From contig NZ_CP031310.1 in assembly GCF_004799665.1 (NCBI RefSeq), positions 1,542,887 through 1,606,886 on the forward strand: 64,000 bases of DNA, read 5' to 3'. A program made the position numbers and the translations under genes. Source of the stretch: Halapricum salinum (GTDB lineage: Archaea > Halobacteriota > Halobacteria > Halobacteriales > Haloarculaceae). The notes below the pieces were generated by a model. That model saw nothing but the letters and a program-made list of their open reading frames with translations, was not told where the DNA came from and searched no databases. Positions 4,403-54,282 of the stretch are shown here, piece after piece. Each line of letters opens with the position of its first letter. Within the stretch, counting starts at the first letter, position 1.

Positions 4403-5350
4403 TTAGACCGTCGGCACTTCGACGCTGCCGAGGACGTCGCTGACGACCGACGATTTCTGGATGTCTTCGACGCGGGCGTCGGGCGTGAGCACGAGCCGGT
4501 GGGCCATCCCGGGCTGGGCGACGCGTTTGACGTCGTCGGGCGTGACGAACTCCCGACCGACGATAGTCGCGCGGGCGCGGGCCATCTCGAACAGGCGCTG
4601 GGTCCCGCGCGGCGACACCCCCACTTCGACGTGACGGTGTTGGCGGGTCTGCCGGCAGAGTCGCGCGATGTATTCGAGGACGTCCTCCTCGACGGTGATC
4701 GACTCCGGAGTCGTCCGGAGGGCCCGAACGGCCTCGGAGTCGAGTACTTTCTCGACGGAGGGGCTCTGTTCGGTTCGGCCGGCACGGCGTCGCAGGAGTT
4801 CGAACTCGCCTTCTTCGTCGGGGTAGCCCATCGCGGTCTTGATGGCGAAGCGGTCGACCTGCGCTTCGGGTAACTCGAAGGTGCCCTCCATCTCGACGGG
4901 GTTCTGGGTCGCGATGACGAAGAACGGATCGGGCAGTTCGTGGGTGTCGCCGTCGACGGTGACTTGCTCTTCTTCCATCGCTTCGAGCAGGGCCGACTGG
5001 GTCTTGGGCGGGGCGCGGTTGATCTCGTCTGCGAGGACGACGTTGGCGAAGATCGGGCCTTTCGAGAACTCGAAGGTTCGATCCTTCTCGTTGAAGATGT
5101 GGGTGCCGGTCACGTCCGCCGGGAGGAGGTCGGGCGTGAACTGGATTCGGGAAAACGACAGGCCAAGGGACTTTGCGAACATCCGTGCAGTCAGGGTCTT
5201 GCCCGTGCCGGGCACGTCTTCGAGCAGGACGTGGCCCCGGCCGACGACCCCGAGGAGGACGGTTTCGAGGAACTCTCGGTCGGTGATGACTGCGCCTTCG
5301 ATCTCACTGAGCAGGGATTCACAGGCGGAACTCGCTTCGTCGACGTCCAT
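4403..5350 (-). CDS. MoxR family AAA+ ATPase
   Basis: 315 residues, normal for the family. Walker A GTGKT at residues 48-52, Walker B and sensor region ADEINRAPPKTQSALLEAM, and the MoxR signature ATQNPVEMEGTFELPEAQ. These ATPases act with DUF58/vWA proteins as chaperones. The start is the ATG giving MDVDEASSAC; extension upstream gives residues unlike the family. Unusually, the gene converges on the DUF4129-DUF58 operon instead of being part of it, so its transcription is independent. Confidence 0.92.
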   Translation of the reverse strand: MDVDEASSACESLLSEIEGAVITDREFLETVLLGVVGRGHVLLEDVPGTGKTLTARMFAKSLGLSFSRIQFTPDLLPADVTGTHIFNEKDRTFEFSKGPIFANVVLADEINRAPPKTQSALLEAMEEEQVTVDGDTHELPDPFFVIATQNPVEMEGTFELPEAQVDRFAIKTAMGYPDEEGEFELLRRRAGRTEQSPSVEKVLDSEAVRALRTTPESITVEEDVLEYIARLCRQTRQHRHVEVGVSPRGTQRLFEMARARATIVGREFVTPDDVKRVAQPGMAHRLVLTPDARVEDIQKSSVVSDVLGSVEVPTV

Positions 5351-5464
5351 ACTCCGGGCTGTTTCAGTGCCGTGACTTAGGTGTGTCGGGATCGAATGAG
5401 AGGTATTGCCAGCCCCGTCCCGGATCGAAACGGATAAAGTCGGCTCGCAGGTAGATGGGGATGA

Positions 5465-5549
5465 GCCAGAGTAGCCTAGCCCGGCCAAGGCGGTTGCTTC
5501 GAGAGCAACTGTCCGTCAGGACTCAGGAGTTCAAATCTCCTCTCTGGCG
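5465..5549 (+). tRNA. tRNA-Ser(CGA)
   Basis: Acceptor GCCAGAG (5465-5471) pairs with CTCTGGC (5542-5548), discriminator G at 5549. The anticodon stem GTTGC/GCAAC encloses TTCGAGA, with anticodon CGA at 5500-5502. The long variable arm TGTCCGTCAGGACT marks a class II tRNA. The T stem AGGAG/CTCCT encloses TTCAAAT. CCA is not encoded. A 23-base copy of its 3' end recurs at 5674-5696. Confidence 0.95.
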
Positions 5550-5606
5550 CTTCTGTCGACGCCACACGAAGAGCGAAGCGAGTCGTCGGCGTCGACGAAC
5601 GACAGC

Positions 5607-5696
5607 GGAGATTTGAGCAGGCGAGTCGCAGCCCGGACCGACGCGAAGCGTCGTACGCCCGGAACGCCTCGACGAGTTCAAATCTCCTCTCTGGCG
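5607..5696. repeat. Palindromic element built on tRNA-Ser 3' end
   Basis: The right side (5674-5696) repeats the last 23 bases of tRNA-Ser exactly. The left side, GGAGATTTGAGC at 5607-5618, is the inverted complement of the T-arm part (TTCAAATCTCC). Between them is a GC-rich imperfect hairpin with GACGCGAAGCGTC at its centre. The sequence after each tRNA end is also alike: CCACACGAAGAG occurs just downstream of both. The architecture matches the elements beside tRNA-Tyr at 13.6-13.9 kb. Confidence 0.75.
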
Positions 5697-5747
5697 TTTT
5701 CCACGACCACACGAAGAGTGGAACCGCCGTCGATCGTTCGGCGTCCC

Positions 5748-7604
5748 TCAGGTCAGGAAGAACAACAGGACGCTGACCGCAAGGACGGCCACGATGAACG
5801 CGCCGGCCAGAGCACCGCCGAGCGAGACGACGGCGTTGGCGGTCGAGGCGAGCGTCTCGGTGCGGTCGTTGCCGAAGACGGTCACTTCGGCTCGCTCGGT
5901 GGCCATGCCTGCCTCGACGGGTTCGAGGTCGGCGCGTGCGTCGTCGACGAGCTCGTCGATCATCGCCAGGAGGTCGTCTTCGGGAATCTCGTCGCCGACC
6001 TGATTTTCCGCTTCCATGGTGTTGACCACGTGCGTATCGGAAGTCAGGACTTCGACGAGGTCGGCCCCGCCGACGTCCTCGACGATCCGCTCTCGGAGGC
6101 CGGGCTCCATGTTGTTGCCGTCGACGAGGACGTAGGCGGTGGTGTGATCGTCGACGTCGAGGAGGGCGACCCGGATCCCCAGGGGACCGATTCCTTCCTC
6201 GGGTTTCCAGGAGGTGGGATCGTGGGCCGTTCCGAGCGCGAGGTCGGATCGGGGAGCGTCGGCGAGTCGCTCGCTGAGTTCGCGTGCTCCCTCGATGAGG
6301 TCGAACGAGCGCTGGCTGCCGGGCGTGACGTGGCCCAGGTCCGGTCCGGTGAGGCCGTTGTTGCAGTTGTGCGCGTCCGCGAGCAGGACGTCCTCGATGT
6401 GGCCGTTGCGAGCCTCTGCGATCGCCGAGAGGCCGACGCCGTACTCGACGTCGTCGGCGTAGCCCGGCGAGAAGGTGGCGACCGCCAGCGCGTTGCAGTC
6501 GAAGGCATGGCCGGTCAGCGTCGCCTCGCCGGATTCGACGCGGTGGCCGCGGGTCGCGCTCGCGGTGTAGTCGATCCGCTCGTGGGCGCGGTCGGCGGCG
6601 TCGACGATCCGGCCGACCTCGCGTTCGGTGACGAGGTTGAAGTCGTGGCCGGCGGTGGCGTGCGGCGGGAACGCCAGCCCTTCCGAGTGGCTGGCGATGC
6701 GCTCGGGGAGGTTGCCGCCGCCGATGTCACCCATCGGCCCGGGGTGGATCATCGGGAGGACGAACCGAGCCTTTTCGTCGCCAGCGTTGGCGTCACGGAA
6801 CGAGAGGACCGTGACGGGGACGACGGCGTCCTCGCCAATCTCCTCGAAGAAGTCCTCCAGTTCGCGCGTGCCTTCGGCGACGTGGCCGATGAAGCCCTGG
6901 ATGAAATCGAGAACGCTGACGCCGAGACTGCGCTGCCAGGGGCGGTCGATGACGACTAAAAATAGCCAGACGGCTCCGGCGTAGAGGGCGCACATGCCGC
7001 CGAGTAGGAGGAAGTCTTCCGGTGCGAAGCTCATCGGGAGGTTCGCGTGGTCAGCCCGCGAGAAGAGCCGGTCGACGAGCGCGCCGCCGAACTGGTAGTA
7101 GCGGAGGGTTCCGGTGTAGACGAACAGCAGCGCCGCGCCGGCAACGGTCTGGATGCTCGCGGGGATGGCCGCGACGGCCAATCTGTGTCGGGAGACCGCC
7201 ATCACGATCAGGAGTCGAAAGGCGAAGATCGACGCCAGCGCGACCAGCAGTGCGTCGAAGACGAACGGCTGTTCGAGCGGCGTGACGAGGACGGCTGTCG
7301 CTGCGGCCGTCAGGATTCCGATGACGACGAGTTCGCAGGTCAGCGCCAGCAGCGACGAGCGATTGTAAGTGAGTTGCCCGCCGAGTCGCTGGTCGAAGAT
7401 CGGGGTCAGGAGACTCGCAGCGACGGTGGGAACCCCGACGAAGAACACGCCCTGCCAGGCGTCGTCCAGCACGAACGCCGAGTCGAAGGCGGCGACGCCG
7501 CTGACGGCCGCGATCAGGAGTGCGAACGCGAGCGTCGTGTACCACCGCGGAGCCCTGAAGACGAACCGCGACAGCGCCGCCAGGTCGCCCTGCGTAGCTG
7601 TCAT
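5748..7604 (-). CDS. DUF2070 family membrane protein
   Basis: 618 residues. Seven or so hydrophobic helices occupy roughly residues 25-230 and a last helix closes the protein (GGALAGAFIVAVLAVSVLLF). The large central domain contains HPGPMGDIGGGNLPERI, ATAGHDFNLVTEREV and LADAHNCNNGLTGPDLG, as in archaeal DUF2070 proteins. The His/Asp/Asn-rich motifs resemble a metal-dependent hydrolase-like core, but no activity is established. Single gene, transcribed away from guaAA's end. Confidence 0.85.
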   Translation of the reverse strand: MTATQGDLAALSRFVFRAPRWYTTLAFALLIAAVSGVAAFDSAFVLDDAWQGVFFVGVPTVAASLLTPIFDQRLGGQLTYNRSSLLALTCELVVIGILTAAATAVLVTPLEQPFVFDALLVALASIFAFRLLIVMAVSRHRLAVAAIPASIQTVAGAALLFVYTGTLRYYQFGGALVDRLFSRADHANLPMSFAPEDFLLLGGMCALYAGAVWLFLVVIDRPWQRSLGVSVLDFIQGFIGHVAEGTRELEDFFEEIGEDAVVPVTVLSFRDANAGDEKARFVLPMIHPGPMGDIGGGNLPERIASHSEGLAFPPHATAGHDFNLVTEREVGRIVDAADRAHERIDYTASATRGHRVESGEATLTGHAFDCNALAVATFSPGYADDVEYGVGLSAIAEARNGHIEDVLLADAHNCNNGLTGPDLGHVTPGSQRSFDLIEGARELSERLADAPRSDLALGTAHDPTSWKPEEGIGPLGIRVALLDVDDHTTAYVLVDGNNMEPGLRERIVEDVGGADLVEVLTSDTHVVNTMEAENQVGDEIPEDDLLAMIDELVDDARADLEPVEAGMATERAEVTVFGNDRTETLASTANAVVSLGGALAGAFIVAVLAVSVLLFFLT

Positions 7605-7679
7605 CGCTCTATCAACGCCCGCGAGACGGGATAAAACTACAGTATCTCCTCTTGATCGATATACAGATCCGTACTGGGT

Positions 7680-8252
7680 CTACTGCTCGGCCATAGCCGC
7701 CTTCTCTTCACAGATCGCGATGAAGTTCTCGAAGACTTCCTCGCCGCGCTCGGTGTGGGCGACCTCGGGGTGCCACTGGACACCGTAGAGGCCGTCCTCG
7801 ACGTTCGACATCGCTTCGACGCCACAGACGTCGCTTTTGGCCGTGCGTTCGAAGCCCTCGGGGACCTCCTTGACCTCGTCGGCGTGGCTGGCCCACACCC
7901 GCGTCTCGGGTGCGAGCGATCCCACGAGCGGATCCTCGTCGTCGAGGATCTCGACGGTGACGTCGGCGTAGCCGCCGTACTCGCCGCCACCGACCCGGCC
8001 GCCGCGTTCGTCGGCGATGATCTGCATGCCGAGACAGATGCCGAAGACGGGGATATCGAGATCGAGGTACTCCGGGCAGTTGCCGATGCGGTCGATGTCC
8101 GGTCCGCCGGAGAGGACCAGCCCGTCGGCGTCGATCTCTTCGGGTGGCGTGTCGTTGTCGATCAGCTCGACGTCCACGCCCATGTCGCGGAGCGCGCGTT
8201 GCTCCAGATGGGTGAACTGGCCGTGGTTGTCGATGACGTCGATGTGAGTCAT
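7680..8252 (-). CDS. guaAA: GMP synthase glutaminase subunit
   Basis: 190 residues, a class I glutamine amidotransferase domain alone. The catalytic Cys is in FGICLGMQII, and the His/Glu pair in VQWHPEVAH. It supplies ammonia to the separate PPase subunit, encoded here at 43690-44607, to make GMP from XMP. Start ATG gives MTHIDVIDNHGQF, typical of the archaeal subunit; the open frame upstream is not conserved-looking. Archaea encode the two halves separately, and here they are 35 kb apart. Confidence 0.95.
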   Translation of the reverse strand: MTHIDVIDNHGQFTHLEQRALRDMGVDVELIDNDTPPEEIDADGLVLSGGPDIDRIGNCPEYLDLDIPVFGICLGMQIIADERGGRVGGGEYGGYADVTVEILDDEDPLVGSLAPETRVWASHADEVKEVPEGFERTAKSDVCGVEAMSNVEDGLYGVQWHPEVAHTERGEEVFENFIAICEEKAAMAEQ

Positions 8253-8369
8253 TGGAGGGGGATAGACGGCTTGGAGATAAATATTCGTGGAAATAGGCCG
8301 GCGAGATGCTGGATCGCTGGTGAGCGTGACTGGAAAAGACAAAGTGTGCGTGTCGTGCAGAACTACGTA

Positions 8370-8909
8370 ATGAACGAAGGAACGCGGGTCTTCGACGGCG
8401 ACGACGCCGACCCCGACGAGGCAGTGGTCGTCTGGCGACCCGAGGGGACGACGATCGCCGACTGGGAGTACGAGGCCGACGGCGAGACCTACACGACAGC
8501 CGAATCGAACCCCGACTACGACCCCGACGAGCAACTGGTGCTGCTCAGTTTCGTGGACGATCTGGACGAGCACTGGGGTGCGTGGACGGCCCACGATCCC
8601 GACGAGCTATACGAGGGCGTTCAGGAGCACGACGTTCCCCACTACGGCTTCCCGGAGGGGCGACTCGTCGAGGCCGACACCGACGAGGGGGACGTGGACG
8701 GGGACGACGCGGTCGAGGTCCCCGCCGAGTTCGAGACCATCCGTGAACGCCTCGAAGAGAACGGCTTTACCGTCGAGGTCGACGAGGAGGCGGCCGAACT
8801 CTACGTCGAGAAGTACGGCACGGAGTACGTCGTCGCCGCCGACGGCACTGTCACCGGTGACGAGGGACTCAGGAATCGCGTGACGAGTATCGTCAATCGC
8901 TATCTCTAG
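8370..8909 (+). CDS. Conserved acidic hypothetical protein
   Basis: 179 residues, very rich in Asp and Glu. The N-terminal half contains WRPEGTTIADWEYEADGETY and VLLSFVDDLDEHWGAWTAHD, and the C-terminal part EFETIRERLEENGFTVEVDE. No membrane segment, signal or catalytic motif is seen. It looks like a soluble haloarchaeal protein of unknown function. Transcribed divergently from guaAA; ATG 8370 is the first reasonable start. Confidence 0.75.
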   Translation: MNEGTRVFDGDDADPDEAVVVWRPEGTTIADWEYEADGETYTTAESNPDYDPDEQLVLLSFVDDLDEHWGAWTAHDPDELYEGVQEHDVPHYGFPEGRLVEADTDEGDVDGDDAVEVPAEFETIRERLEENGFTVEVDEEAAELYVEKYGTEYVVAADGTVTGDEGLRNRVTSIVNRYL

Positions 8910-8927
8910 GTCGCTCGGCCGCGCCGG

Positions 8928-9368
8928 TCACAGCTCGGTCGGATCGAACGGCTCGTTTCGACCCTGCCACGCTTGTTGGTCTCGTTCCATGCGAGTGTCC
9001 AGATAGACTTCCAGCCCGTTACCGGCAGGGTCGTCGAAGTAGAGTGCCTTGCTGATCCCGTGATCGACCGGGCTGACCTGGATACCGCGATCTTGCAACC
9101 GCTCGAAAATAGTTCGTAACGCCTCTGGAGTGTCGACCTCGAAGGCGGCGTGGTACATGCCGACGCCGGGGCCGGGAGCGGGTGCGTCCGCGCCGAGGCC
9201 CTGGAGGGCGACGTCGTGGTGGTGCTGGCCCCACGAGCAGAAGGCGTAGCGGCCGTGGCGTTCGGTGACGTCGAGACCCAGGACCTCGGTGTAGAACTCG
9301 AGTGCGCGGTCGACGTCCCGTACTTTGAGGTGGACGTGACCGACGTGGGTGGGGTGGTCGTCTGGCAT
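8928..9368 (-). CDS. VOC family (glyoxalase/extradiol dioxygenase-like) protein
   Basis: 146 residues with the VOC fold pattern: HVGHVHLKVRDVDRALEFYT, EVLGLDVTERHG, MYHAAFEVDTPEALR and a metal-site Glu in AGNGLEVYLD. The His in HVHLKV, the His in MYHAAF and this Glu could form a metal site, as in catechol 2,3-dioxygenase-like proteins. Substrate unknown. The gene converges on the preceding plus-strand gene. Confidence 0.85.
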   Translation of the reverse strand: MPDDHPTHVGHVHLKVRDVDRALEFYTEVLGLDVTERHGRYAFCSWGQHHHDVALQGLGADAPAPGPGVGMYHAAFEVDTPEALRTIFERLQDRGIQVSPVDHGISKALYFDDPAGNGLEVYLDTRMERDQQAWQGRNEPFDPTEL

Positions 9369-9443
9369 ACTCTGTGAGAGGGTGGCTGGCGCGAAAAGTC
9401 TCCGGTAGCCTGGGTGTCACCCCCTCGCTGTCGGTGTGGAGCG

Positions 9444-9980
9444 TCACTCGTCGCCGTAGCGTTCAGCGGCGGACTCGAAGGCCAGTTCGTCGAGTTCCTC
9501 GCCTTTGCGGGTCTCGGCTTCGGCGAGCGCTTCGGGGTCGGGGCTGGCGTCGTCGTCGACGCGCGCCCAGGAGTTGTGGACTTTGGCGTGACACCACCGG
9601 CAGAGCGAGACGGTGATCTCGTGGCTCGGGCGACCCTCGCCCCGGCCGCTGGCCTCGGCGTAGGAGAGGTGGTGTTCCTCCAGGAGTGGGCGGGTGTCCT
9701 CGTGGGCCTGGCGGCGTTCGTCGAGGCCGCAGCGAATGCACGATCTGCCCTCGGTCGTCGAGCGGAAGTGTGGGCAGTCGGCCCAGCCCCACTCGCCGTC
9801 GGGGTCAGCCGCCGGACAGCGGAAGTCGTCGGCGCTGCGGGCGTCGGCGAACTCGGGGTCGTGGTGGCCCCACTCGCGTGCCCAGCGGCACTTGCCCTCG
9901 TCGGTGACGTGGTCGCAGCGCTCGACGTGGGCGTACGGGTCGTCGACGCCGACCGAGGACCCGCCGGGCGCTTTCTCCAT
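9444..9980 (-). CDS. HNH-like cysteine/histidine-rich protein
   Basis: 178 residues, start at MEKAPGGSS. Metal-ligand clusters run along the protein: CDHVTDEGKC, CPAADPDGEWGWADCPHF, CIRCGLDERR, then LLEEHHLSY and CRWCHAKVH. The last part matches an HNH nuclease-like beta-beta-alpha-metal arrangement (EEHH ... SLCRWCHAKVH). The C-terminus is acidic and helical. I recall it as a haloarchaeal conserved family (possibly DUF7097) but cannot verify that. Nuclease activity is inferred only. Confidence 0.7.
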   Translation of the reverse strand: MEKAPGGSSVGVDDPYAHVERCDHVTDEGKCRWAREWGHHDPEFADARSADDFRCPAADPDGEWGWADCPHFRSTTEGRSCIRCGLDERRQAHEDTRPLLEEHHLSYAEASGRGEGRPSHEITVSLCRWCHAKVHNSWARVDDDASPDPEALAEAETRKGEELDELAFESAAERYGDE

Positions 9981-10049
9981 ACCTGCGTCGTTGGTTCGGG
10001 AGTCTTTGAATCTGCCGCTGGGATTGCTCGATCGAATGGTGACTAGTGG

Positions 10050-10515
10050 ATGGCGCGCGCTGGCGAGACTTGTGCGGTCGCTTGCGATCGCGATGCGAAC
10101 GGCGCAGCCGTGAGCGTGTCGAGCCGATTTCGTGTGAGGGACGAGCGAACGTAGTGAGTGAGTCAGCTGGGGAGGGCGTGGTCGTCTGTAGCTGGGGCTT
10201 TCTGGGTGTTCGTAGATGGGTTGTCCCAGAAAGCCCCCGGTCGCTGGAGTCGAGAGGCTGGCGAGACTTCGTTTCACTCGTCTCGCTGCTATCCGCTCGC
10301 TCCGCTCGCGGATACCTCGCTTCGCTCCTCGTCGTTGCACTCCTGTGGTGCTTGCGTCGGCTGTCTTCCTCCAGCGACCGGCCCCTTTCAGTCCCGCCCG
10401 ACGGCACGACAACGAGCCACACCCTCCCCAACCGACTCACGCTCTCACTCCGTTCGAGCGTTCGTCCCTCGCACAGCGTCGGCTCACCACGTGGGTTCGC
10501 CAGCGCGCGCCACGT
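10050..10515 (-). repeat. Long inverted-repeat intergenic element, copy C of RNA-like family
   Basis: No gene fits this 560-base gap. The outer arms (GGCGCGCGCTGGCGA at 10052-10066 and its complement near 10498-10512) are inverted, as are the blocks GAGGGACGAGCGAACG (10136-10151) and its degenerate complement near 10456-10471. Inside, 10369-10389 and 10229-10249 form, on the minus strand, a 21-bp helix that is perfect except for three consecutive G-G mismatches after the GAAAG/CTTTC end. A rival hairpin, GGGGCTTTCTGGG / CCCAGAAAGCCCC (10195-10237), uses the same bases. Confidence 0.65.
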
Positions 10516-10542
10516 TGGAAAATTCACAGACAGAGACACAGC

Positions 10543-11352
10543 CTAGGTCGGATCACGTCGCCCCTCGACCCACGTCTCGTTGGCGAACTTCTCGCGGGCG
10601 CGTGCCTGCGCCCGCTCCAGCTCGTCGTCGCTCCACCCACCCGCTTCCGCGCCGGACCACTCCCGCAGCGCGTCCTCGATCGCGCTCACGGCCTCGTCCC
10701 GGGAGCAGTCCGCGTAGTCGGTGATCGCCCCCACACGGTCACGGAAGTCCGCGGCCGACACTGGGCAGTCCGCGAAGATCCCCAGGTGCGCGTCCGTCGC
10801 ACGCTCGAAGGTGATCGAGCCGTGCTGGACGACCGCCTCGCGCTGGCGATACTGGGCGTTGCCGCTCAGCTTGCGGCCGTCCGGGCCGACGACGTCGTGG
10901 GCGGGATGGAGGTCCCGGAGATAGCAAGCTGGCTCGAAGACCGCTGCTCGTTCTTCGTCGACGAATCGAGCGTCGACTCTCAACTGTGCGAAGGCCGAAA
11001 AGAGTGGCTCACACAGCAGTTGATAGCTCTCCATGAGGTCGCCCGGAAGCTCCGCGGCGGGGGCGACGATCGAGTAGGAGATGTCTCCCCAGTCGTCGTG
11101 ATAGATTGTGCCGCCGCCGGTCTGCCGGCGGGTCACGTCGATCCCGGCCCGCTCACAGAAGTCGAGATCGAGGATGTCCCGCGGCTGGCTGTAGCCGAGC
11201 GAGACCGTGCCGGGCGTCCAGCGATAGACGTGAACTGTGGCTGGCCCGCCAGCGGCGGCGGTCTCGGCGGCGATTTCGTCCAGCGCCATCTGTACGGCCC
11301 CGGGACGGCTCTCCTCGCCGATAAATCGCCACTCCAGCTCCGACAGTGCCAT
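10543..11352 (-). CDS. Lipoate-protein ligase A family protein
   Basis: 269 residues. The signature RRQTGGGTIYHDDWGDISYS and the lysine-bearing GRKLSGNAQYRQ are the lipoyl-AMP/biotinyl ligase family core. It would attach lipoate or octanoate to E2 or GcvH lysines, or act as an amidotransferase. Start at MALSELEWRFIGEESRPGA is chosen because the Trp-Arg-Phe segment near the N-terminus is usual; an ATG at 11409 would add 19 residues. Divergent from the thioesterase gene. Confidence 0.88.
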   Translation of the reverse strand: MALSELEWRFIGEESRPGAVQMALDEIAAETAAAGGPATVHVYRWTPGTVSLGYSQPRDILDLDFCERAGIDVTRRQTGGGTIYHDDWGDISYSIVAPAAELPGDLMESYQLLCEPLFSAFAQLRVDARFVDEERAAVFEPACYLRDLHPAHDVVGPDGRKLSGNAQYRQREAVVQHGSITFERATDAHLGIFADCPVSAADFRDRVGAITDYADCSRDEAVSAIEDALREWSGAEAGGWSDDELERAQARAREKFANETWVEGRRDPT

Positions 11353-11441
11353 GCCCCGATAGCGGGCCTCCGCGCTCAAAGCGGTTGTGTCCCTGCTGTC
11401 TGTCGACATTCCTAAACGCGCGACGACCGCAGACACAGACA

Positions 11442-11858
11442 ATGAGTTTCACGTTCGAAACGACGGTCGACGTCCGCTACACGGACTTCGATACGTACGG
11501 GCACGTCAACAACGCCGTCTACGCGACGTTTCTCGAAGAGGCTCGCGTCGACTACCTCACGCACGTCGTCGGCGAGCACGCTGATATCACGGGCTCTGGC
11601 GAAGGACTGGGGATCGTCCTCGCAACGCTCGAACTGGACTTCCAGGATTCACTCGGCCCGAGCGACAGCGTCACCGTCGCAGTTCGGGTCCCCCAACTCG
11701 GGACCTCTAGTTTCCTCCTCGAGTACGAAGTCCGTGAGGACGGTGCGGTATTGGCGACCGGTGAGACGACGGTCGTCGTCTTCGATCGCGCGAGTCGCGA
11801 GTCACGGCCGATTCCCGACTCCTGGCGCGAGAACATCAGTGAGTTCGAGCAATTGTAG
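11442..11858 (+). CDS. Acyl-CoA thioesterase, 4HBT hotdog fold
   Basis: 138 residues, the usual length. The hotdog motif RYTDFDTYGHVNNAVYATFL carries the catalytic Asp and the GHVNNAVY helix start typical of 4-hydroxybenzoyl-CoA thioesterase-like enzymes, followed by LELDFQDSLGPSDSVTVAV. It hydrolyses some acyl-CoA thioester; the substrate is not deducible. Confidence 0.9.
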   Translation: MSFTFETTVDVRYTDFDTYGHVNNAVYATFLEEARVDYLTHVVGEHADITGSGEGLGIVLATLELDFQDSLGPSDSVTVAVRVPQLGTSSFLLEYEVREDGAVLATGETTVVVFDRASRESRPIPDSWRENISEFEQL

Positions 11859-11866
11859 CGCGCCGG

Positions 11867-12943
11867 TCACGACTCCGTGAGCGCCGCGATGAGCTGGTCG
11901 TTCTCGTCGGGGAGCCTGACCGACACCCGGATGTGTGCGTCTAGCCCGCGGAAGTCCCGTGCGTCTCTGAGGACGATCCCTTCCTCGCGGGCGTGATCGA
12001 TCACTTCGTCCACCCGCTCGCCCGACCCGGCGTCGAGCAACAGGAAGGGTGCAACCGAGGGGTAGATGTCGAAGTGCTCGTCGAGGTGGTCTTCGAGCCG
12101 CTGGCGTTCGCTCTCGACTCGCTGTCGCGTCTCCTCGATGAACTCCGGCTGATTGAGGCAGTAGGTCGCCAGCGAGACGGCCGGCTCGCCCACGCCCCAG
12201 GGCAGGCGCGTGACGTCGAGTCGATCGCGGTAGGTTCCAGTCGCGACGGCGAACCCGATCCGGAGGCCCGGGAACCCGAAGATGTTGGTCAGCGACCGCG
12301 TGACGATGACGCCATCTCTCCCTGCGAGCGACGGAATATCGGTGAAACCCAGGAACGCCTCGTCGACGAGAAGCGGCGTCCCGGCTCGCTGACACCGATC
12401 AGCGAACGCCGAGAGTCCACGCGGATCGTAGGCCTGCCCGGTCGGATTGTTCGGCGTGTCCACGACCACCAGGTCGTGAATCGATGGGTCGACGTCCAGC
12501 ATCTCCGAGTGAGAGACGAACGTCGGCTCGCCACCCTGGAGAGCGACCTCTCGCTCGTAGCCCTGGAAACCCGGCTTCGGGAGCGCGACCGAGTCTCCCG
12601 TTCCGATCGTCGTCGCGATCGCCAGCCGAAGCGCGGCCATCCGACCCCCAGTTGGAATCACCTGCTCGGGCTCACAGCCGACGTACTCGGCGGCCGCGAT
12701 CCGGAAATCACAGTACGAATCGGAGGGGTACGAACGCGACGCGGCGAAGGCACTCTGGTAGGCCTGGACAGCCCCCGTGGGAATCGCCGGGTTCGTCGTC
12801 GAACTGAAATCGAGCAGGAGCCGATCGTCGGGTCCCTCGCGAGCGATTCGCAGACTCGATGTTCCGCGATTACTCTCCGACACATCTGACGCCTGGTCCT
12901 GACAGGGGTGGCTAACCAGCGCGTCCACTGCGTCGGGGTCCAT
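11867..12943 (-). CDS. Aminotransferase class I/II (CobD/HisC-like) lacking PLP lysine
   Basis: 358 residues with the fold-type I pattern: DFSSTTNPAIP, NPTGQAYDPRG, LLVDEAFLGF and GFPGLRIGF. It most resembles threonine-phosphate decarboxylase (CobD) and histidinol-phosphate aminotransferase. The residue expected to be the PLP Schiff-base lysine in RSLTK is Asn220 here (codon at 12284-12286), so the classical chemistry should fail. No cobalamin genes are nearby. It may be an inactive paralogue, a binding protein, or a recent mutation. A TATA-like ATTTAAAC lies about 30 bases ahead of the start. Confidence 0.8.
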   Translation of the reverse strand: MDPDAVDALVSHPCQDQASDVSESNRGTSSLRIAREGPDDRLLLDFSSTTNPAIPTGAVQAYQSAFAASRSYPSDSYCDFRIAAAEYVGCEPEQVIPTGGRMAALRLAIATTIGTGDSVALPKPGFQGYEREVALQGGEPTFVSHSEMLDVDPSIHDLVVVDTPNNPTGQAYDPRGLSAFADRCQRAGTPLLVDEAFLGFTDIPSLAGRDGVIVTRSLTNIFGFPGLRIGFAVATGTYRDRLDVTRLPWGVGEPAVSLATYCLNQPEFIEETRQRVESERQRLEDHLDEHFDIYPSVAPFLLLDAGSGERVDEVIDHAREEGIVLRDARDFRGLDAHIRVSVRLPDENDQLIAALTES

Positions 12944-12965
12944 ACCGATTAGTAGACTGGGTGGC

Positions 12966-12983
12966 GTTTAAATAATACTTTTC
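12966..12983 (-). promoter_or_regulatory. TATA box of the CobD-like gene
   Basis: On the minus strand the sequence is GTATTATTTAAACGCC. Its spacing predicts a transcript starting at or just before the ATG at 12943, so a leaderless mRNA. This supports the chosen start. Confidence 0.55.
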
Positions 12984-13275
12984 CTGCCACACTTTCTGGG
13001 CGAACGACGCCGAGCCACCCCCTGTACTCGTGCGTCACACCTCTGTCTGACACGTATCAGAAAACACGCAATAATCTGCGCAACAACTACCAGTTTGCGT
13101 ATGTGTGTTGCGGATTCTTCTATCAGATTGAGTATTTAAATCGCTATAGTGGGGACGAATCGGAGCGGGAATCACCGTCGTCGTAAAACGGCATTCTCAG
13201 CGCGACCTGAGGTGGCAGACGGTCAATTGGACCATCATTACACCGACCGTAGTACGCGATAGAATTCGTGGCGAG
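12984..13275. other. AT-rich intergenic stretch with orphan promoter-like site
   Basis: No coding frame is convincing. The stretch is AT-rich for this genome. A palindromic GTATTTAAATCGC at 13130-13142 looks like a TATA box, with no matching start about 27 bases to either side, so it may drive an untranslated RNA or be unused. GCGCAACAAC and GTGTGTTGCG form a loose inverted repeat around 13078-13112. Confidence 0.4.
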
Positions 13276-13437
13276 CTACTCGTCGACCCATTTCGCCGCC
13301 CGGATATCGTAGCTCCCACACTCCGGGCAGGAGTGGTATTGCACTGGCAGGGCCGCCTGGCAGGACATGCACCGATAGGGATAGGACTCGGTGTCACTGC
13401 CCCTGGCGAACCACTTTGACCGATCGAGGACACCCAT
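13276..13437 (-). CDS. Small zinc-ribbon protein, 53 residues
   Basis: The frame runs from an ATG (MGVLDRSKWFARGSDTESYP) to TAG and carries two CxxC knuckles: CMSCQAAL at about residue 23 and CPECGSYDIR at about residue 37. A spacing of about 10 residues between knuckles suggests a rubredoxin-like zinc ribbon. The gene is below normal gene-caller size limits. Such miniproteins are common in haloarchaea; the partner is unknown. Confidence 0.65.
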   Translation of the reverse strand: MGVLDRSKWFARGSDTESYPYRCMSCQAALPVQYHSCPECGSYDIRAAKWVDE

Positions 13438-13643
13438 CTGTTACCACACCAGGTGACACGGCCTATCGAGACAAAAAAGGGGCAGACCGTTCACGGCGGT
13501 TCAGTCTGCGGGTTCGGCGCATGCTGATCGCGGACTGCATAGTTCGGGCGCGCTCGCGCGGAACTGAACACACGCAGGTCGCAGAAGATCGCCCACAGCG
13601 TCGCCGCTCGCTTTTCCGGGACTCTCAGTTCGCGACAAAGCAG
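13438..13643. other. Intergenic, no gene seen
   Basis: Upstream of the tRNA-Tyr repeat block. Short frames exist on both strands but have no recognisable composition or start context. The only structure noted is GACCGTTCACGGCGGTTC-type imperfect dyads. Confidence 0.3.
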
Positions 13644-13742
13644 TCCGCGCTCCCCGATTTGAACAGATGACAGACGTTCCGGGCGTGCGGCGCTTCGCGC
13701 CGTTCCAGGGCTGCGACTCGTCTGCTCAAATCGTGTCGGGCG
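13644..13742. repeat. tRNA-Tyr 3'-end palindromic element, copy 1
   Basis: TCCGCGCTCCCCGATTTGAA at 13644-13663 (plus C) matches 20 of 21 bases of the tRNA-Tyr 3' end (13911-13931). It is followed by an imperfect hairpin (GTGCGGCGCTTCGCGCCG) and then GCTCAAATCG at 13724-13733, the inverted copy of the T-arm end. Its centre, CGTTCCGGGCGT...GGCTGCGACTCG, also matches the element beside tRNA-Ser when that is inverted. Confidence 0.75.
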
Positions 13743-13752
13743 TGAATACACA

Positions 13753-13778
13753 CGCGGCGCTCGAAAGTGAGCGCCGCG
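13753..13778. repeat. Perfect 10-bp hairpin between tRNA-end repeats
   Basis: CGCGGCGCTC (13753-13762) pairs with GAGCGCCGCG (13769-13778) around a GAAAGT loop. It lies between the two tRNA-Tyr 3'-end copies and could be a processing or termination structure. Confidence 0.6.
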
Positions 13779-13785
13779 AGAAGTA

Positions 13786-13870
13786 TCCGCCCTCCCCGAT
13801 TTGAACTGAGGAAGACATTCCTGCTCGCTACGCTGTGCGGGCTGTGACTTCCCGGCTCAAATCGGGGAGC
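13786..13870. repeat. tRNA-Tyr 3'-end palindromic element, copy 2
   Basis: The 21 bases at 13786-13806 are identical to the 3' end of tRNA-Tyr at 13911-13931. The inverted partner GCTCAAATCGGGGAGC is at 13855-13870. The loop region contains GGAAGACATTCCTGCTCGCT, nearly the same as 21543-21562 in intergenic copy A. A further perfect stem TCGGCGC/GCGCCGA follows before the tRNA. Confidence 0.75.
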
Positions 13871-13910
13871 GATCTACTTGACAGTCGGCGCGTTGCGCCG
13901 ACAGAACAAG

Positions 13911-13984
13911 TCCGCCCTCCCCGATTTGAACGGGGGACAAGTCGATCTACAGTCGACTGCTCTACCAGTCTGAGCTAAGGGCGG
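13911..13984 (-). tRNA. tRNA-Tyr(GTA)
   Basis: On the minus strand the acceptor CCGCCCT pairs with AGGGCGG, discriminator A. The D arm reads TAGCTCAGACTGGTAGAGCA, the anticodon loop CTGTAGA holds GTA, and the T arm CCCCG TTCAAAT CGGGG is perfect. 74 nt, no encoded CCA and no intron seen. Its 3' end is duplicated twice downstream. Confidence 0.95.
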
Positions 13985-14114
13985 TTGCACTCGAACGTAG
14001 CCCGCCTGGCAGACTTAAGGATTGTTATTCGCTCCGCTCCCCTCTTTCGTTTCCCGGTTCTCCACTATCTATTGTGGATAATAATTATATTAGCCCAGGA
14101 AGTATATTCGCACG

Positions 14115-14342
14115 ATGCAGCAGGCACTCAGGGAGTGTCGGTACTGTGGCAACAAGCTCGCAACTGGTGGCCGGTCGGTCTCGTGTGGCGCCTGTGAAAC
14201 GGGATTTCACGTCGCGTGTGCCGACCGAGCCGACGAACTCCACGTCGAAGTGAACTCTCGCCTGTTGCGGTCTGATACCTACGAGATCGAGTGCCCCAAC
14301 TGCAGCTTTCAGTGGGAGATCGGGTTCGACCCGTCTGACTAG
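14115..14342 (+). CDS. Small zinc-finger protein, 75 residues
   Basis: Three metal-binding pairs: CRYCGNKL, CGACETGFHVACADRA and CPNCSFQWEI. CGAC...HVAC resembles a treble-clef or PHD-like knuckle. No signal or membrane segment. An AT-rich upstream region (AATAATTATATTAGCCC) supplies a TATA box about 27 bases ahead, fitting a leaderless ATG. The gene lies just upstream of the cdrL-like gene and may be co-regulated with it. Confidence 0.7.
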   Translation: MQQALRECRYCGNKLATGGRSVSCGACETGFHVACADRADELHVEVNSRLLRSDTYEIECPNCSFQWEIGFDPSD

Positions 14343-14421
14343 CGTCGTCACACTGGCTAACGATCGTCAGACACTCGGGAAGATTGAAATACCAGGGCTG
14401 ACAAGGTGTAGGACGAATCGG

Positions 14422-15009
14422 ATGAGCAAGATCACGTTCCGCGCAGACGACGATCTCATTGCTCAATTAGAGGAGTTCGACGCCTCTAAGAGCGAAATCA
14501 TGCGTGAGGCTCTGCGCGAATATCTCGGTGAGTCCGCGTCCGCCACTCCGTCGAGGTCGGACACGATGACGAGGAGTGACGACGCCGAGAGTCTCGACGA
14601 GCTGGTCACTGAGCGTGTCGACGCGATCATCGCCGATCGTCTCGACGGGATGGTCCAGCCCCGTCAACCCCAGGATATCAACGTAAACATCGCTCTCGAC
14701 GGCGAATCCGAGACTGACGCCGAGGTCGAACGCGAGGCGTCTCACACTGCGTCGACAGACGCGTCACACGACCCCTCGGAGCGTAAGACGACCGCGGCCA
14801 GGGACGAAACCGACGAGCAAGAGGCGCGTAACACGTGTACTCAATGTGGCGAAACCCTGTCTGAATCCCACGTTTACTGCCCGAATTGCGGCGAAAAAGC
14901 GTCACACAGGGTCTTCTGTGAATGTGGCGACGAACTCCGGTCTGACTGGGGTTTCTGCCCCAGCTGTGGCCGACGGACGCCCGCTGCTGACGTTCTCGAT
15001 CAGACCTAA
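14422..15009 (+). CDS. cdrL: RHH-zinc ribbon regulator, CdrL-like
   Basis: 195 residues. N-terminal ribbon-helix-helix (MSKITFRADDDLIAQLEEFD, then SEIMREALREYL), a long acidic linker, and C-terminal tandem zinc ribbons (CTQCGETL, CPNCGEKA, CECGDEL, CPSCGRRT). Its place directly upstream of cdrS-ftsZ2 and its domain plan fit CdrL, the long regulator reported in Halobacterium to act on the cdrS-ftsZ2 promoter. It should bind DNA as a dimer; the 18-bp palindrome at 15112-15129 is a candidate site. Confidence 0.82.
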   Translation: MSKITFRADDDLIAQLEEFDASKSEIMREALREYLGESASATPSRSDTMTRSDDAESLDELVTERVDAIIADRLDGMVQPRQPQDINVNIALDGESETDAEVEREASHTASTDASHDPSERKTTAARDETDEQEARNTCTQCGETLSESHVYCPNCGEKASHRVFCECGDELRSDWGFCPSCGRRTPAADVLDQT

Positions 15010-43689: not shown

Positions 43690-44607
43690 TCATTCGTACT
43701 CGATGGTCGCGGGCGGCTTGTGGGTCACGTCGTAGACGACGCGAGCGACGTTCTCGTGTGCGCCGGTGATCCGGCTCTGGATGCGCTGGAGGGTCTCCCA
43801 GTCGATCTCCTGGGCGCGGGCAGTCATGCCGTCCCGGGACTCCACCGAGCGCACGGAGACGACCCAGCCGTGGACGCGGTTGTCGCCCTTGACGCCTGTG
43901 GCCTTGCCGATGACCGCCGCGAGGGCCTGCCACGGTTCGTACTCCTCCAGTTCCTCCTCGACGACGTGGTTGGCCTCGCGGGCGACTTCGAGCTTCTCCT
44001 CGGTGACGGGACCGATGATCCGCACTGCCAGCCCGGGCCCGGGGAAGGGCATCCGCTCGGAGATCACCGCTTCGAGGTCGAGTTCGCGCGCGACTTCCCG
44101 TACTTCGTCCTTATAGAGGTCGCGCATCGGTTCGACGATGCCGTCGAAGTCGATGCGCTCGGGCAGGCCGCCGACGTTGTGGTGGGACTTGATCGTCCCC
44201 TCGCTCTCGATGCGGTCGGGGTAGATGGTCCCCTGGACGAGGTAATCGGCGTCGACTTCACGGGCGACCTCCTCGAACTCCCGGATGAACTGCTCGCCGA
44301 TGATGTGTCGTTTCTCCTCGGGGTCGTCCTCGCCTTCGAGGGCGTCGAGGAACCGATCCTTGGCGTCGACGATCCGCAGACTCTCCATGTAGTCGAAAGT
44401 CTCGCGGATCTCCTCGGTCTCGCCTTTGCGCATCAGGCCGGTGTCGACGTAGACCGCAGTCAGTTGCGTGCCGATGGACTCGTAGGCCAGCGCGGCCGCG
44501 GTCGAGGAGTCCACACCGCCCGAAAGGCCGATGACGGCGTTCGCGTCACCGACCTCCTCACTGATCTCTTCGATCTTCTCCTCGATGAAGGAATCGACGT
44601 CGACCAT
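43690..44607 (-). CDS. guaAB: GMP synthase ATP-pyrophosphatase subunit
   Basis: 305 residues. PP-loop [40 protein letters not shown], and the C-terminal dimer domain [20 protein letters not shown] and [13 protein letters not shown]. It adenylates XMP and aminates it with ammonia from the glutaminase subunit (7680-8252). The start overlaps the pyrG stop by one base, so both are translated from one mRNA. Confidence 0.96.
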
Positions 44608-46262
44608 CAGGCTTCGACCTCCGTTTCGGGTGCGCTCCGGTCACGTTCTCCCAGCACCGCTTCGAGCAGGCCGACAAAGGGCGGTGAGGCTCGCGTGGGT
44701 CGCGAGCGGAACTCGGGGTGGAACTGTGTCCCGATGAAGTAGGGGTGGTCTTCGAGTTCGAGGATCTCCATCCGCCGACCTGCGCGGCCGGAAAAGACCA
44801 TGCTGGTGTCGGCAAAGTCCTCGAAGTACTCGGGGTTGACCTCGTAGCGGTGACGATGGCGTTCCGTACAGACCGTCGACTGGTAGAGGTCTTCCGCTAG
44901 CGTCCCGGGCGTGATGTCGGTCTGATGTGCGCCCAGGCGCATCGTCCCGCCCATGTCGTCGGTGTGTTCCTGCTCGGGCAAGATGTCGATGACGGGGTCG
45001 GGCGTGTCTTCGTCCATCTCCGCTGAATGAGCCTCGGGGTAGTCGAGGACGTTCCGGGCGACCTCGACGACGGCCATCTGGAAGCCCAGACAGAGTCCCA
45101 GGAAGGGAACGTCGTGTTCGCGGGCGTAGCGGATGGCTTCGATCTTTCCCTGTGTGCCCCGGGAGCCGAAGCCACCGGGGACGACGACGCCGTCGGCTTC
45201 CGTGAGATTCTCGCTGTCGGTGACGTCCTCTTTGTCCGAGTCGACCCAGCGGATGTTGACGTCGACGCCCTTCTCCAGGCCGGCGTGTTTCAGCGCCTCG
45301 TTGACGGACATGTAGGCGTCTTCGAGATCGTACTTGCCCACGAGGGCGATGTCGACCTCACCGGTCGTCTCCTGGGTCACGAGTTCGCGCCAGCGGTTGT
45401 CCCGTTCTTCGGCGGGGAGGGCGCGCTCGGCCAGGCCGAGTTGCTCCATCACGTACTCGTCGAGTCCTTCCTCCTCGACCATCAGCGGGACGTGATAGAT
45501 GTCATCGACGTCGGGGTTCGAAAAGACGGCGTCGGTCGGGACGTCACAGAACAGCGCGATCTTCTCCTTGACGTCGGGGTCGAGTTTGTCTTCACAGCGC
45601 CCGACCAGAATATCGGGCTGGAGACCGATCGAGCGGAGTTCCTTGACACTGTGCTGAGTGGGCTTGGTCTTCTGCTCGCCGTTTTTCGAGTAGGGGACGA
45701 GCGTGACGTGGGTAAAGAGAATATCGTTCTCGTCTTGCTCGTGGGCGAACTGTCGCAGTGCTTCGAGATAGGGCATCCCCTCGATGTCGCCGACCGTGCC
45801 GCCGACCTCGACGAGACAGACGTCGGTGCCTTCGGCCGCTTCCCGAATCCGGCGCTTGATATCGTCGGTGATGTGCGGGATGATCTGCACCGTCTTGCCG
45901 AGGTAGTCGCCCGCGCGTTCCTTCTCGATGACGTGTTTGTAGGTCTTGCCGGTCGTGACGTTGTGGTCGAAGGTCATGTCCTCGTCGAGGAATCGCTCGT
46001 AGTTCCCCAGGTCGAGGTCGACCTCGCCGCCGTCTTTCAGGACGTAGACTTCCCCGTGCTGGAAGGGGTTCATCGTGCCGGCGTCGACGTTCAGATACGG
46101 GTCGATCTTCACCGCGGTGACGTCGAACCCGGCGTTCTTGAGGAGACGGCCGGTGCTGGCGGCCGTGATTCCCTTGCCGAGACCGGACATCACCCCGCCG
46201 GTGACGAAAACGAACTTGTTCCCGAGTGTGGGGTCGTACCCCGTTTCGGATTCCGTGGGCAT
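44607..46262 (-). CDS. pyrG: CTP synthase
   Basis: 551 residues. Synthase domain [40 protein letters not shown] and [20 protein letters not shown]; glutaminase domain with Cys in [18 protein letters not shown] and His/Glu in [12 protein letters not shown]. Converts UTP to CTP. ATG 46262 begins [16 protein letters not shown]. Paired with guaAB, so two glutamine-dependent nucleotide steps share an operon. Confidence 0.96.
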
Positions 46263-46341
46263 ACTGACGGTGCGCGAGGAGGCGTCAAAACGGTTTCGGG
46301 ACCGCTCGCGTTCGTGACCGCGTGTCAAATCCTGGGCCGAT

Positions 46342-46671
46342 CTAGGCTTCGCTCAGCGCCTCGAAGTCAATCTGGAACGTGGGTCGACCGGCGGCGACCT
46401 CCCGCTGGACGGGCACCTTCTTGCCTTTCAACTCCTGGACCTCGTCGGGACCGAGACCGAAGGCGTCGAGCAACCGTTTCAGGTCGCAGTTCGGCCCCCA
46501 GATCGGCGGTCGTTTCAACTCGCGCCGGAAGACGTTGTTCGCGGGCGTCTTCAATTCGATCGTCACGGTCTGACCGTCGTCCTGTACCGAGGAGACGGGA
46601 AGCCGTGAGAGGTCCCCACCCGCTCTGACGGCCCCCAGGGCGTCGGCGATGTCGTCGATGTCGTCGGGCAT
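46342..46671 (-). CDS. Conserved haloarchaeal hypothetical protein
   Basis: 109 residues. [20 protein letters not shown], a beta-rich middle ([20 protein letters not shown]), then [20 protein letters not shown] and [12 protein letters not shown]. No known motif. Located upstream of pyrG on the same strand and could share its transcript. Confidence 0.72.
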
Positions 46672-46775
46672 GGCCGTCCGTACGACCGGGCCCCATACAA
46701 AACGGTCGGGTCACGTCTCCGTACTCGAACCGACCAACAGCAGGAACTTTTGCCCGGGACGACGTAGACGCATCT

Positions 46776-46883
46776 ATGATGATTGAACTCGGGTACGCGA
46801 TCGCTGTCGTCGTCGCGCTCGGTTTCGGCTACGGGACGGTTCGCCTGCTCTGGGGCGCGGATATCCCGAACGTGATCGGCTGA
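46776..46883 (+). CDS. Tiny membrane protein, 35 residues
   Basis: ATG 46776 opens MMIELGYAIAVVVALGFGYG followed by TVRLLWGADIPNVIG and TGA: one transmembrane helix with a short tail. AACTTTTG about 28 bases upstream could be the TATA box of a leaderless transcript. Too short for usual gene finding. Confidence 0.5.
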   Translation: MMIELGYAIAVVVALGFGYGTVRLLWGADIPNVIG

Positions 46884-46915
46884 GTCGCGTCCGACAGGGC
46901 GTGTGCTCGCGGCGC

Positions 46916-46975
46916 TCATTCTGCCAGTCGCTCTGTGAACCACGACGCGACCGTTTCCGCGGCACGCTCACTCTG
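46916..46975 (-). pseudogene. Detached 3' end of the alpha/beta hydrolase gene
   Basis: The minus-strand codons read QSERAAETVASWFTERLAE and stop. They align with QRARAAEAVASWLTGRLRSR at the end of the intact hydrolase (47793-48389), including CCACGACGCGACCG present in both (46940-46953 and 47820-47833). No start or upstream part is present. This looks like a gene end left behind by an insertion or duplication. Confidence 0.65.
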
Positions 46976-47010
46976 CGGACTGCTACCGGCCCGGGGGCTC
47001 GTACTCGGCG

Positions 47011-47328
47011 TCACGCCCACTCGTGGTTGTCCCAGCCTTCGTAGTGCTTTAGCCGTAGCTGTATCTCGAACGGTTGCCACTCGCATTCGTGATAGAGAAC
47101 GTCCGCGAGATCACCGAACGCGCTGTTGTCCAGTTCGATCCCTTCTTTCCCCCGGTTCGTGACGTAGGATGCGCTTCGGAGGTCGTCGAAGACGGTCCGT
47201 GCGCGTGGGTACTCATCACTGTCGATCGCGGCCACCGCGACGAGACCCTCCTCGTCGATCGGGGTCCCCCACCTGTGCTTTGCGATCATCGCTGCGAGCA
47301 ATACACACTTCACCGACGGCTTCCGCAT
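47011..47328 (-). CDS. Hypothetical protein of a two-gene cassette
   Basis: 105 residues: MRKPSVKCVLLAAMIAKHRW, TVFDDLRSASYVTNRGKEGI, then a C-terminal DVLYHECEWQPFEIQLRLKH. It looks like a small winged-helix-type or RNase-barrier protein but is unassigned. Minus-strand TATA GATATTGAAATA at 47351-47362 lies ideally for a leaderless start at 47328, which rules out the ATG at 47358. Divergent from the HTH gene and flanked by the hydrolase-end duplication. Confidence 0.65.
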   Translation of the reverse strand: MRKPSVKCVLLAAMIAKHRWGTPIDEEGLVAVAAIDSDEYPRARTVFDDLRSASYVTNRGKEGIELDNSAFGDLADVLYHECEWQPFEIQLRLKHYEGWDNHEWA

Positions 47329-47344
47329 ACACGCCGTTCCTGCG

Positions 47345-47425
47345 GATTCATATTTCAATATCGTGGTAATTGTGATTAACGCGAGTGTGTATGTTTATAT
47401 ACGGTCGAGTTGTATATTGATACCA
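47345..47425. promoter_or_regulatory. AT-rich divergent promoter of the cassette
   Basis: About 80 bases with far lower GC than the surroundings. TATA-like boxes GATATTGAAATA (minus use), TTTATATA (47394-47401) and TGTATATTG (47411-47419, plus use) each lie about 27 bases from a leaderless start. The HTH protein may bind here. Confidence 0.6.
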
Positions 47426-47446
47426 CGGACGAGACTACAGGTCACG

Positions 47447-47791
47447 ATGAGCAGACAGACTCAATCTCACGATACCGACGACCGCGACACGAAGGAGGCC
47501 CGCCTCCAGCATCCGAGTGGCTTTCTCTATCTCACCCAGCACGAGAGCGTGCCGATCCTGATCGACGCGTTACTCGATCTCCCGCCGGGTCGGGAGTTCA
47601 ACAAGACCGAACTGGCCGACCACGCTGGTGTCACGCGCCAGACTGTCGGGGCGTACATCGATGTCCTGATTGAGACGGGAGTCCTCGAGGAGGTTCCGAA
47701 GACATCGCCCCAGCGCTACCGTCTCGCCGAGAGCGAGGTCGTCGAGGAACTGTTCGCACTCAACAGTGCGCTGAACGCTATCAGAGAGTAA
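47447..47791 (+). CDS. Winged-helix transcription regulator of a two-gene cassette
   Basis: 114 residues. HTH LLDLPPGREFNKTELADHAG / VTRQTVGAYIDVLIETGVLE, with N-terminal PSGFLYLTQHESVPILIDAL. This haloarchaeal wHTH type is common beside small partner genes. The stop lies 2 bases before the end of the convergent hydrolase gene. Likely regulates the divergent partner. Confidence 0.8.
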   Translation: MSRQTQSHDTDDRDTKEARLQHPSGFLYLTQHESVPILIDALLDLPPGREFNKTELADHAGVTRQTVGAYIDVLIETGVLEEVPKTSPQRYRLAESEVVEELFALNSALNAIRE

Positions 47792-47792
47792 G

Positions 47793-48389
47793 CTACCGGC
47801 TCCGGAGTCGACCGGTCAGCCACGACGCGACCGCCTCCGCGGCCCGGGCACGCTGGCCCACGAAGAAGTGGTCGGCCGCCATCGACTCGACGGTGGCCCC
47901 GTGCTCGCGGGCCGTCTCGACGATGTTCTCCCACTCGGCGGAGTCGTCGCGTTCGCCGTAGATGACCTGCAGCGGGCAGTCGAGATCGGCGACTGCCGGC
48001 GTGGCGTCGCGCTCGCCGACGGCCGCGTGCGGGGCCAGCACCGACACCGCGAAGGGGTCGGTTTCGAGTGCAGCGAGCAGCGCGACCCCGCCGCCGAAAC
48101 TGTAGCCGAACAGGCCCAGTCGGTCGTAACGCTCGCGCCCCCACTCGCAGGCCGCCACGGCGTCGCGGACCTCGCCGTGGCCGTCGTCCCAGGGGCCGTA
48201 ATCGAAACGCAGGCAGGCGGTCCCACGGTCGGCGAGAGCGTCGGCGACGGCCGTCAGGCGCGAGTCCGTCCGGGAGCCCCCCATCTGGGGGTGGGGCGGG
48301 CAGGCGACCACCAGTGTGTCTGCGTCCGCGGGACCGTCCAGCGTGGCTCGAACGTCTCGTGGGCCGGGGATCCGGAGGCGCTCGCTCAT
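47793..48389 (-). CDS. Alpha/beta hydrolase, dienelactone hydrolase-like
   Basis: 198 residues. DTLVVACPPHPQMGGSRTDS (HxxxGG oxyanion strand), LGLFGYSFGGGVALLAALET with nucleophile Ser, QVIYGERDDSAEWE with the acid, and AADHFFVGQ with the His. Complete triad. Its last 20 codons are repeated, diverged, at 46916-46975 on the far side of the wHTH cassette. Confidence 0.88.
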   Translation of the reverse strand: MSERLRIPGPRDVRATLDGPADADTLVVACPPHPQMGGSRTDSRLTAVADALADRGTACLRFDYGPWDDGHGEVRDAVAACEWGRERYDRLGLFGYSFGGGVALLAALETDPFAVSVLAPHAAVGERDATPAVADLDCPLQVIYGERDDSAEWENIVETAREHGATVESMAADHFFVGQRARAAEAVASWLTGRLRSR

Positions 48390-48483
48390 ATCGGGCGTGG
48401 GACTGGCGCGTGCCTAACGGTTGTGGTCGGCCGTCGGCCCGGCCTCAGTGAACCGAGTAAACGACTCTGAAACACTGCTCTCC

Positions 48484-48490
48484 TTTTTAT
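48484..48490 (+). promoter_or_regulatory. TATA box of the ABC exporter operon
   Basis: TTTTTAT about 29 bases before ATG 48516, giving a nearly leaderless mRNA and supporting that start over the in-frame start at 48495. Confidence 0.5.
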
Positions 48491-48515
48491 GTAGGTGGCG
48501 GGAGGACGGTCGGAC

Positions 48516-50335: not shown

Positions 50336-50370
50336 GCCGGTCCGCTCGCGGTTGCCCTCGTTGAATGTGT

Positions 50371-50378
50371 AAGTGATT
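50371..50378 (+). promoter_or_regulatory. TATA box of pspA-like gene
   Basis: GATTTAAG about 32 bases before ATG 50407 predicts a leaderless or 5-base-leader mRNA, separate from the ABC operon. Confidence 0.5.
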
Positions 50379-54280: not shown

Positions 54281-54282
54281 TG

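Follow-up and report, generated by a model that had tools for sequence, protein, structure and literature searches.

Behind the tRNA-Ser(CGA) gene of Halapricum salinum, the last bases of the gene occur a second time, preceded by an inverted copy of the same sequence. The locus raises the question of whether such a palindrome is a signal that serves the tRNA, a scar of an ordinary integrated element or a mobile unit in its own right. We analysed it within a window of 64,000 nucleotides, part of the 3.45 Mb haloarchaeal chromosome; coordinates below refer to this window unless stated otherwise.

Units behind two tRNA genes

The tRNA-Ser(CGA) gene (5465..5550, plus strand), located by ARAGORN, ends in GAGTTCAAATCTCCTCTCTGGCG. 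As an earlier note on this DNA had claimed, a 23-nt exact second copy of this end lies downstream, with its last base at 5696 and an inverted arm upstream of it. Along the plus strand, the proximal tail (GTTC...GGCG; 5529..5549) is followed by hairpin A (5550..5606), the inverted arm GGAGATTTGAGC (5607..5618), hairpin core B (GAGTCGCAGC ... CGGAACGCCTC; 5619..5675), which belongs to the covarying class 1 described below, and a displaced tail (5676..5696) that equals the tRNA-Ser tail at 21 of 21 positions. The tail-to-tail distance suggests an inserted unit of 147 bp (5530..5676), with a probable crossover between G5529 and T5530, a boundary deduced from the aspS loci described below. At 5540-5549 the tail of this gene reads CTCTCTGGCG, an unusual form common to both tail copies; the majority of relatives have CTCCTCGGCG or similar.

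Behind tRNA-Tyr(GTA) (13910..13984, minus strand, as are all features at this locus), the pattern occurs twice, in tandem. The first unit contains the inverted arm CTCCCCGATTTGAGC (13855..13869), a core B (13807..13854) and a displaced tail (13786..13806) that repeats the 21 nt of the tRNA-Tyr tail with 0 mismatches. The second comprises an inverted arm (CGATTTGAGC; 13724..13733), a core B that is the counterpart of the Ser core (13665..13723) and a displaced tail with 1 mismatch (13644..13664). The Ser core and the second Tyr unit are 89% identical over 60 nt (E 1e-14; own-genome BLAST, query 156-215 against G000:C1:1556558-1556618), which bears out the claim of a hairpin core common to two tRNAs, each unit having its local tail. 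A further claim, that the core read inverted matches a copy at tRNA-Tyr, holds for the match itself; there are two Tyr units, and the cores have equal orientation relative to both tRNAs, appearing inverted because tRNA-Tyr sits on the minus strand.

Anatomy and occurrence in Halobacteria

Units of this kind have the order gene tail, hairpin A, inverted tail and hairpin core B, span about 100-180 bp, are gene-free and are sometimes arrayed. Among 197 units collected by a rule that used the tail copy alone, the median tail-to-tail length is 123 nt (5-95% range 101-173), and an inverted T-loop matching in at least 7 of 9 letters is present in 184, 182 of which were analysed further. A longer-range scan found a tail-to-tail distance above 1 kb in just 1 of 127 cases. 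Displaced tails mostly differ from the local tRNA by 0-1 mismatches. No terminal inverted repeats were seen at unit ends by inspection, and in an Rfam search of window positions 5000-15000 the tRNAs alone exceeded the family threshold, with no match for the units.

Two variants of the tail copy were observed. At four loci of the same genome (L011, L012, L023, L038) the displaced tails have in common an unusual T-loop that contains one additional C, GTTCACAATCC, and continue into the local tRNA tail. At tRNA-Gly(CCC), tRNA-Asp and tRNA-Lys(TTT) (L009, L025, L010), a second type of copy contains just ~14 nt of tail, and the preceding hairpin ends near GCTCA, not in a T-loop.

A direct copy and an inverted T-loop follow in order at 19 of the 43 tRNAs of the genome, compared with 0.3% of 860 shuffled downstream regions. 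The earlier note's reading, a trace of integration or a palindromic element that targets tRNAs, is supported, and the counts run against the outcomes it had named as contrary, namely that other tRNAs never carry the core or that matches stay at shuffled level. Across the class, the palindrome GATTTGAA-N32..62-GTTCAAATCC is found in 240 of 292 Halobacteria genomes (0 for a reversed-pattern control). Sampling across the phylum, by a tally of result rows, gave a similar pattern in 41 of 43 Halobacteria versus 16 of 203 non-Halobacteria; among seven non-Halobacteria matches listed, most run into tRNA genes. At least 120 named stretches with the palindrome carry labels of halophilic archaea. A pattern search for targets other than tRNAs gave matches in 12 of the 292 genomes. 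Six of the matching loci were inspected and comprise one aspS, four tRNAs whose tail copies are altered and a last locus (L367) with neither a tRNA nor a clear direct repeat; the six remaining matches were judged, from their letters alone, to be chance. A literature search with poor coverage of subscription journals found no description of such units, and the hairpin units point to a kind of miniature mobile DNA so far undescribed.

Fold, covariation and polarity

When folded as single-stranded DNA, a unit takes a two-hairpin form: tail and inverted arm pair around A, and B has its own stem (fold z -2.5 for the Ser unit and -5.8 for the Tyr unit). Our first idea of a universal inverted arm proved too simple, as the T-loop type of the arm follows the local tRNA (CAAAT with CAAAT in 127 units, CGAAT with CGAAT in 19). 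GATTCGA is present in nearly all matches listed with GTTCGAATCC. Beyond the T-loop, the arm also tracks the acceptor part of the tRNA, weakly but significantly (z 7.4).

The stems of core B covary. In 83 class-1 cores, two neighbouring inner pairs are 100% paired through several pair types, versus 0.59 and 0.49 in shuffles, with pairing fading in the positions that follow. GNA within a GA...GA frame is a frequent apical loop. Among 173 distinct cores, the asymmetric motif GTCRCAGC lies in the tRNA-sense orientation in all 94 that bear it and is reversed in 0. G.T mismatches exceed A.C mismatches on the sense strand, the excess being weak. Likeness of hairpin A mostly stays within one tRNA, with 59 of 64 similar pairs (similarity at least 0.65) at the same tRNA, and likeness of core B less so, with 51 of 281; both counts are bin sums and some of the pairs are within-genus orthologues. 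Similar cores B are found at many different tRNAs.

Turnover and transfer between genera

The orthologous tRNA-Ser(CGA) locus is empty in four same-genus relatives (G001, G002, G004, G005) and holds a degenerate copy in a fifth (G003). At the tRNA-Gly(TCC) locus of genus g5, empty, single and double states of the unit coexist among genomes. In 81 arrays, drawn from a set that includes related genomes and is not fully independent, the first copy is nearer to the tRNA tail sequence in 41, the last in 4 and the two tie in 36 (p 9e-9). The better preservation of the tRNA-proximal copy indicates that new units enter next to the tRNA. Displaced copies decay and cores turn over.

Units are also shared between genera. 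A tRNA-Gly(TCC) unit is 98% identical between Haloparvum sedimenti and Halorubrum lipolyticum (L220/L242) with unrelated flanks, the downstream comparison being short where the stored locus of the latter ends. Halopenitus persicus and Halorubrum xinjiangense (L270/L290) have a 97% identical unit. Here the upstream sequence is unrelated and the 5' part of the tRNA differs; identity extends from the T-arm to 4 nt past the displaced tail, with weak similarity further downstream.

Replacement of the aspS gene end

The genome has a unit behind aspS, which encodes the aspartate--tRNA(Asn) ligase. Beyond the tRNAs considered in the earlier note, aspS is a second target. Units at aspS are shorter (~80-110 bp). 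In 44 relatives, 30 aspS loci were fetched and 29 parsed; 14 of these hold 20 displaced gene ends within ~350 nt, and a control gave 0 matches in 51,849 nt. Between displaced ends and the own gene end, 106 of 127 codon differences are synonymous, where random substitution would give ~18% and at most 29% (non-synonymous 0.82, minimum 0.71), although the copy filter, which required the stop and no fewer than 7 of 11 residues, itself favours synonymous copies. In ten copies, 11 of 11 residues are retained despite sequence differences from the own gene end, and the first copy at L441 has many base differences and an unchanged peptide.

TTC is preceded by C in 15 of the 29 aspS genes and by G in the other 14, but 12 of 13 displaced copies of full length have G at this position, which places the unit boundary at G|TTC. 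The inverted arm fits the proximal end better than the displaced end in 9 of 11 cases (p 0.01) and better than the ends of other genomes (p 0.001); L441 and L464 oppose this rule. The fit indicates that the inverted arm came in with the proximal end and that the resident end was displaced. At aspS, synonymous copies and the pairing of the arm indicate that an element-borne 3' end replaces the resident one. They also speak against the proposal that the element is rebuilt from the local tRNA, favouring instead a unit with its own gene-end copy. Import of gene alleles by homologous recombination could produce a similar picture for part of the aspS data.

A cassette model

Our data are best explained, at a probability of roughly 60%, by miniature gene-free integrative cassettes; these would recombine at G|TTC, bring along a copy of the end of the target gene and use a folded hairpin as attachment site. 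Such a cassette would consist of a TTC-gene tail, hairpin A, inverted tail and a hairpin core B ending in G. Site-specific recombination would take place at G|TTC of the tRNA T-arm, or at a TTC codon near the end of aspS, whereupon the functional copy of the cassette would replace the 3' end of the gene and shove the resident end downstream. Repeated insertion at the gene-proximal site would build arrays. The cassette might be excised as a circle, the attachment site may be a folded single strand in the shape of a dumbbell with the gene tail as stem, and a recombinase, most likely a tyrosine recombinase, would be supplied in trans. Against this model stand the cores B common to tRNAs with different tails, which call for an extra exchange step beyond simple cassette insertion; moreover, no recombinase, circle or free vehicle turned up in the searches described below. 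A bolder and less likely extension of the model envisages class-wide archaeal DNA dumbbells, independent of integrons: single-stranded circles of ~100-180 nt, with a copy of a host gene end as stem and two hairpin caps, that would integrate into that gene in a structure-specific manner.

Candidate integrases and alternative explanations

Four genes in the genome match Phage_integrase, three of them above the family cut-off, and these genes are candidate partners of the units. Two of them neighbour what are likely integrated elements, one at tRNA-Phe and one at tRNA-Val, and a unit lies immediately past the far end of each element. The first of these, outside the window (G000:C1 ~211,550-281,900; L051, L106, L027), is likely a ~70 kb element stretching from tRNA-Phe to a 13/14 tail copy, whose far end holds the integrase gene and is closely followed by a hairpin unit. 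At the second site (G000:C1 ~44,180-54,600; L108), also outside the window, tRNA-Val(CAC) likely harbours a 10 kb element; an integrase gene is present, and a hairpin unit follows directly after the end of the element.

Such neighbourhoods lend some weight to the view that ordinary integrated elements (of SNJ2-type or other integrases) lost their interior and left the units behind as attL/attR scars, or that such integrases move the units as minimal att derivatives. Integrases of this kind restore the gene end on integration. This origin nevertheless seems unlikely, as the tail-to-tail lengths are tight, unlike those of random remnants, distances above 1 kb are nearly absent and the hairpins are conserved and covarying.

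Insertion at the tRNA 3' end by a MITE-like or casposon-like element, with a target-site duplication that draws both tails from the local tRNA, would account for tail copies that mostly match the local tRNA, for similar cores at many tRNAs and for the four units that share GTTCACAATCC before their local tails. We regard it as decidedly unlikely. A duplicated target would start identical and decay randomly, which fits poorly with aspS copies that are non-identical and mostly synonymous variants; moreover, it is the proximal copy that the inverted arm pairs with, similar hairpins A mostly keep to one tRNA and the unit ends lack visible terminal inverted repeats. A locally duplicated host RNA element for tRNA trailer processing, termination or regulation, in line with the strong RNA-capable structure directly behind tRNAs and the slight sense-strand G.T excess, is highly improbable in view of the empty orthologous tRNA-Ser(CGA) sites, fast core turnover, decaying displaced copies, units behind a protein gene and Rfam matches to tRNAs alone; the earlier suggestion of an RNase Z or other processing signal is likewise not supported.

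Other candidates were set aside on general knowledge of their properties: IS200/605 and PATE-like elements, for which target copies are not expected; IS91-like GTTC targeting, which would leave a single GTTC; casposons, whose duplication model fails at aspS; and tRNA-primed reverse transcription, since the inverted arm does not start with CCA.

Possible vehicles were sought with one unit (L220), which gave no match in a plasmid collection and at most chance-level matches in a phage collection, and no haloarchaeal core with an outer palindrome was found in IMG/VR viral contigs. Prophages with tRNA-end palindromes proved to be a different thing. At six IMG/VR loci (L194, L198, L202, L204, L209, L211), both strands read GGATTTGAACC...GGTTCAAATCC in the arms of a long palindrome, which is probably an attachment site at a tRNA end.

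Comparison with known systems

Like the attC sites of integrons, the units present an imperfect hairpin of conserved fold, variable sequence and fixed orientation, and arrays of units and of integron cassettes alike grow at the anchored end. The integron crossover is GTTRRRY with the boundary between G and TT, according to the available part of PMC8876359. The G|TT boundary of the units agrees with attC, whereas their core is GTTCAAAT, GTTCGAAT or GTTCCCG (GTTC plus gene tail) rather than GTTRRRY. Integron cassettes usually carry a gene, in contrast to the gene-free units of median 123 nt, which are archaeal, anchored on tRNA and aspS ends and without a linked integrase. By analogy, the units appear to work like integron cassettes, though we do not file them as members.

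The attP of the phage CTXphi is a folded single-stranded site. Its single-stranded genome is integrated by a host tyrosine recombinase system, as described in the accessible text of PMC3089051, a likeness to what is proposed here. CTXphi differs in being a bacterial phage with genes; there is no phage evidence for the units. SNJ2 and related integrases of Halobacteria are likewise tyrosine recombinases acting at tRNA 3' ends, but those in the accessible portion of PMC8371274 belong to kb-sized elements with their own integrase, and the units of ~100-180 bp encode none. The SMRs and PATEs of Haloquadratum are also tiny, gene-free haloarchaeal mobile repeats, some palindromic; tRNA tails or gene-end restoration are not described for them in the available part of PMC3119063.

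Implications

If the cassette model is true, miniature mobile cassettes have supplied the terminal sequence of many aspS genes and of a large share of the tRNA genes in haloarchaea, and the stacked displaced gene ends are a natural record of horizontal transfer. The folded-site recombination logic of bacterial integrons would then extend to archaea with essentially zero cargo, and in tractable organisms such as Haloferax the units would lend themselves readily to tests of structure-specific recombination.
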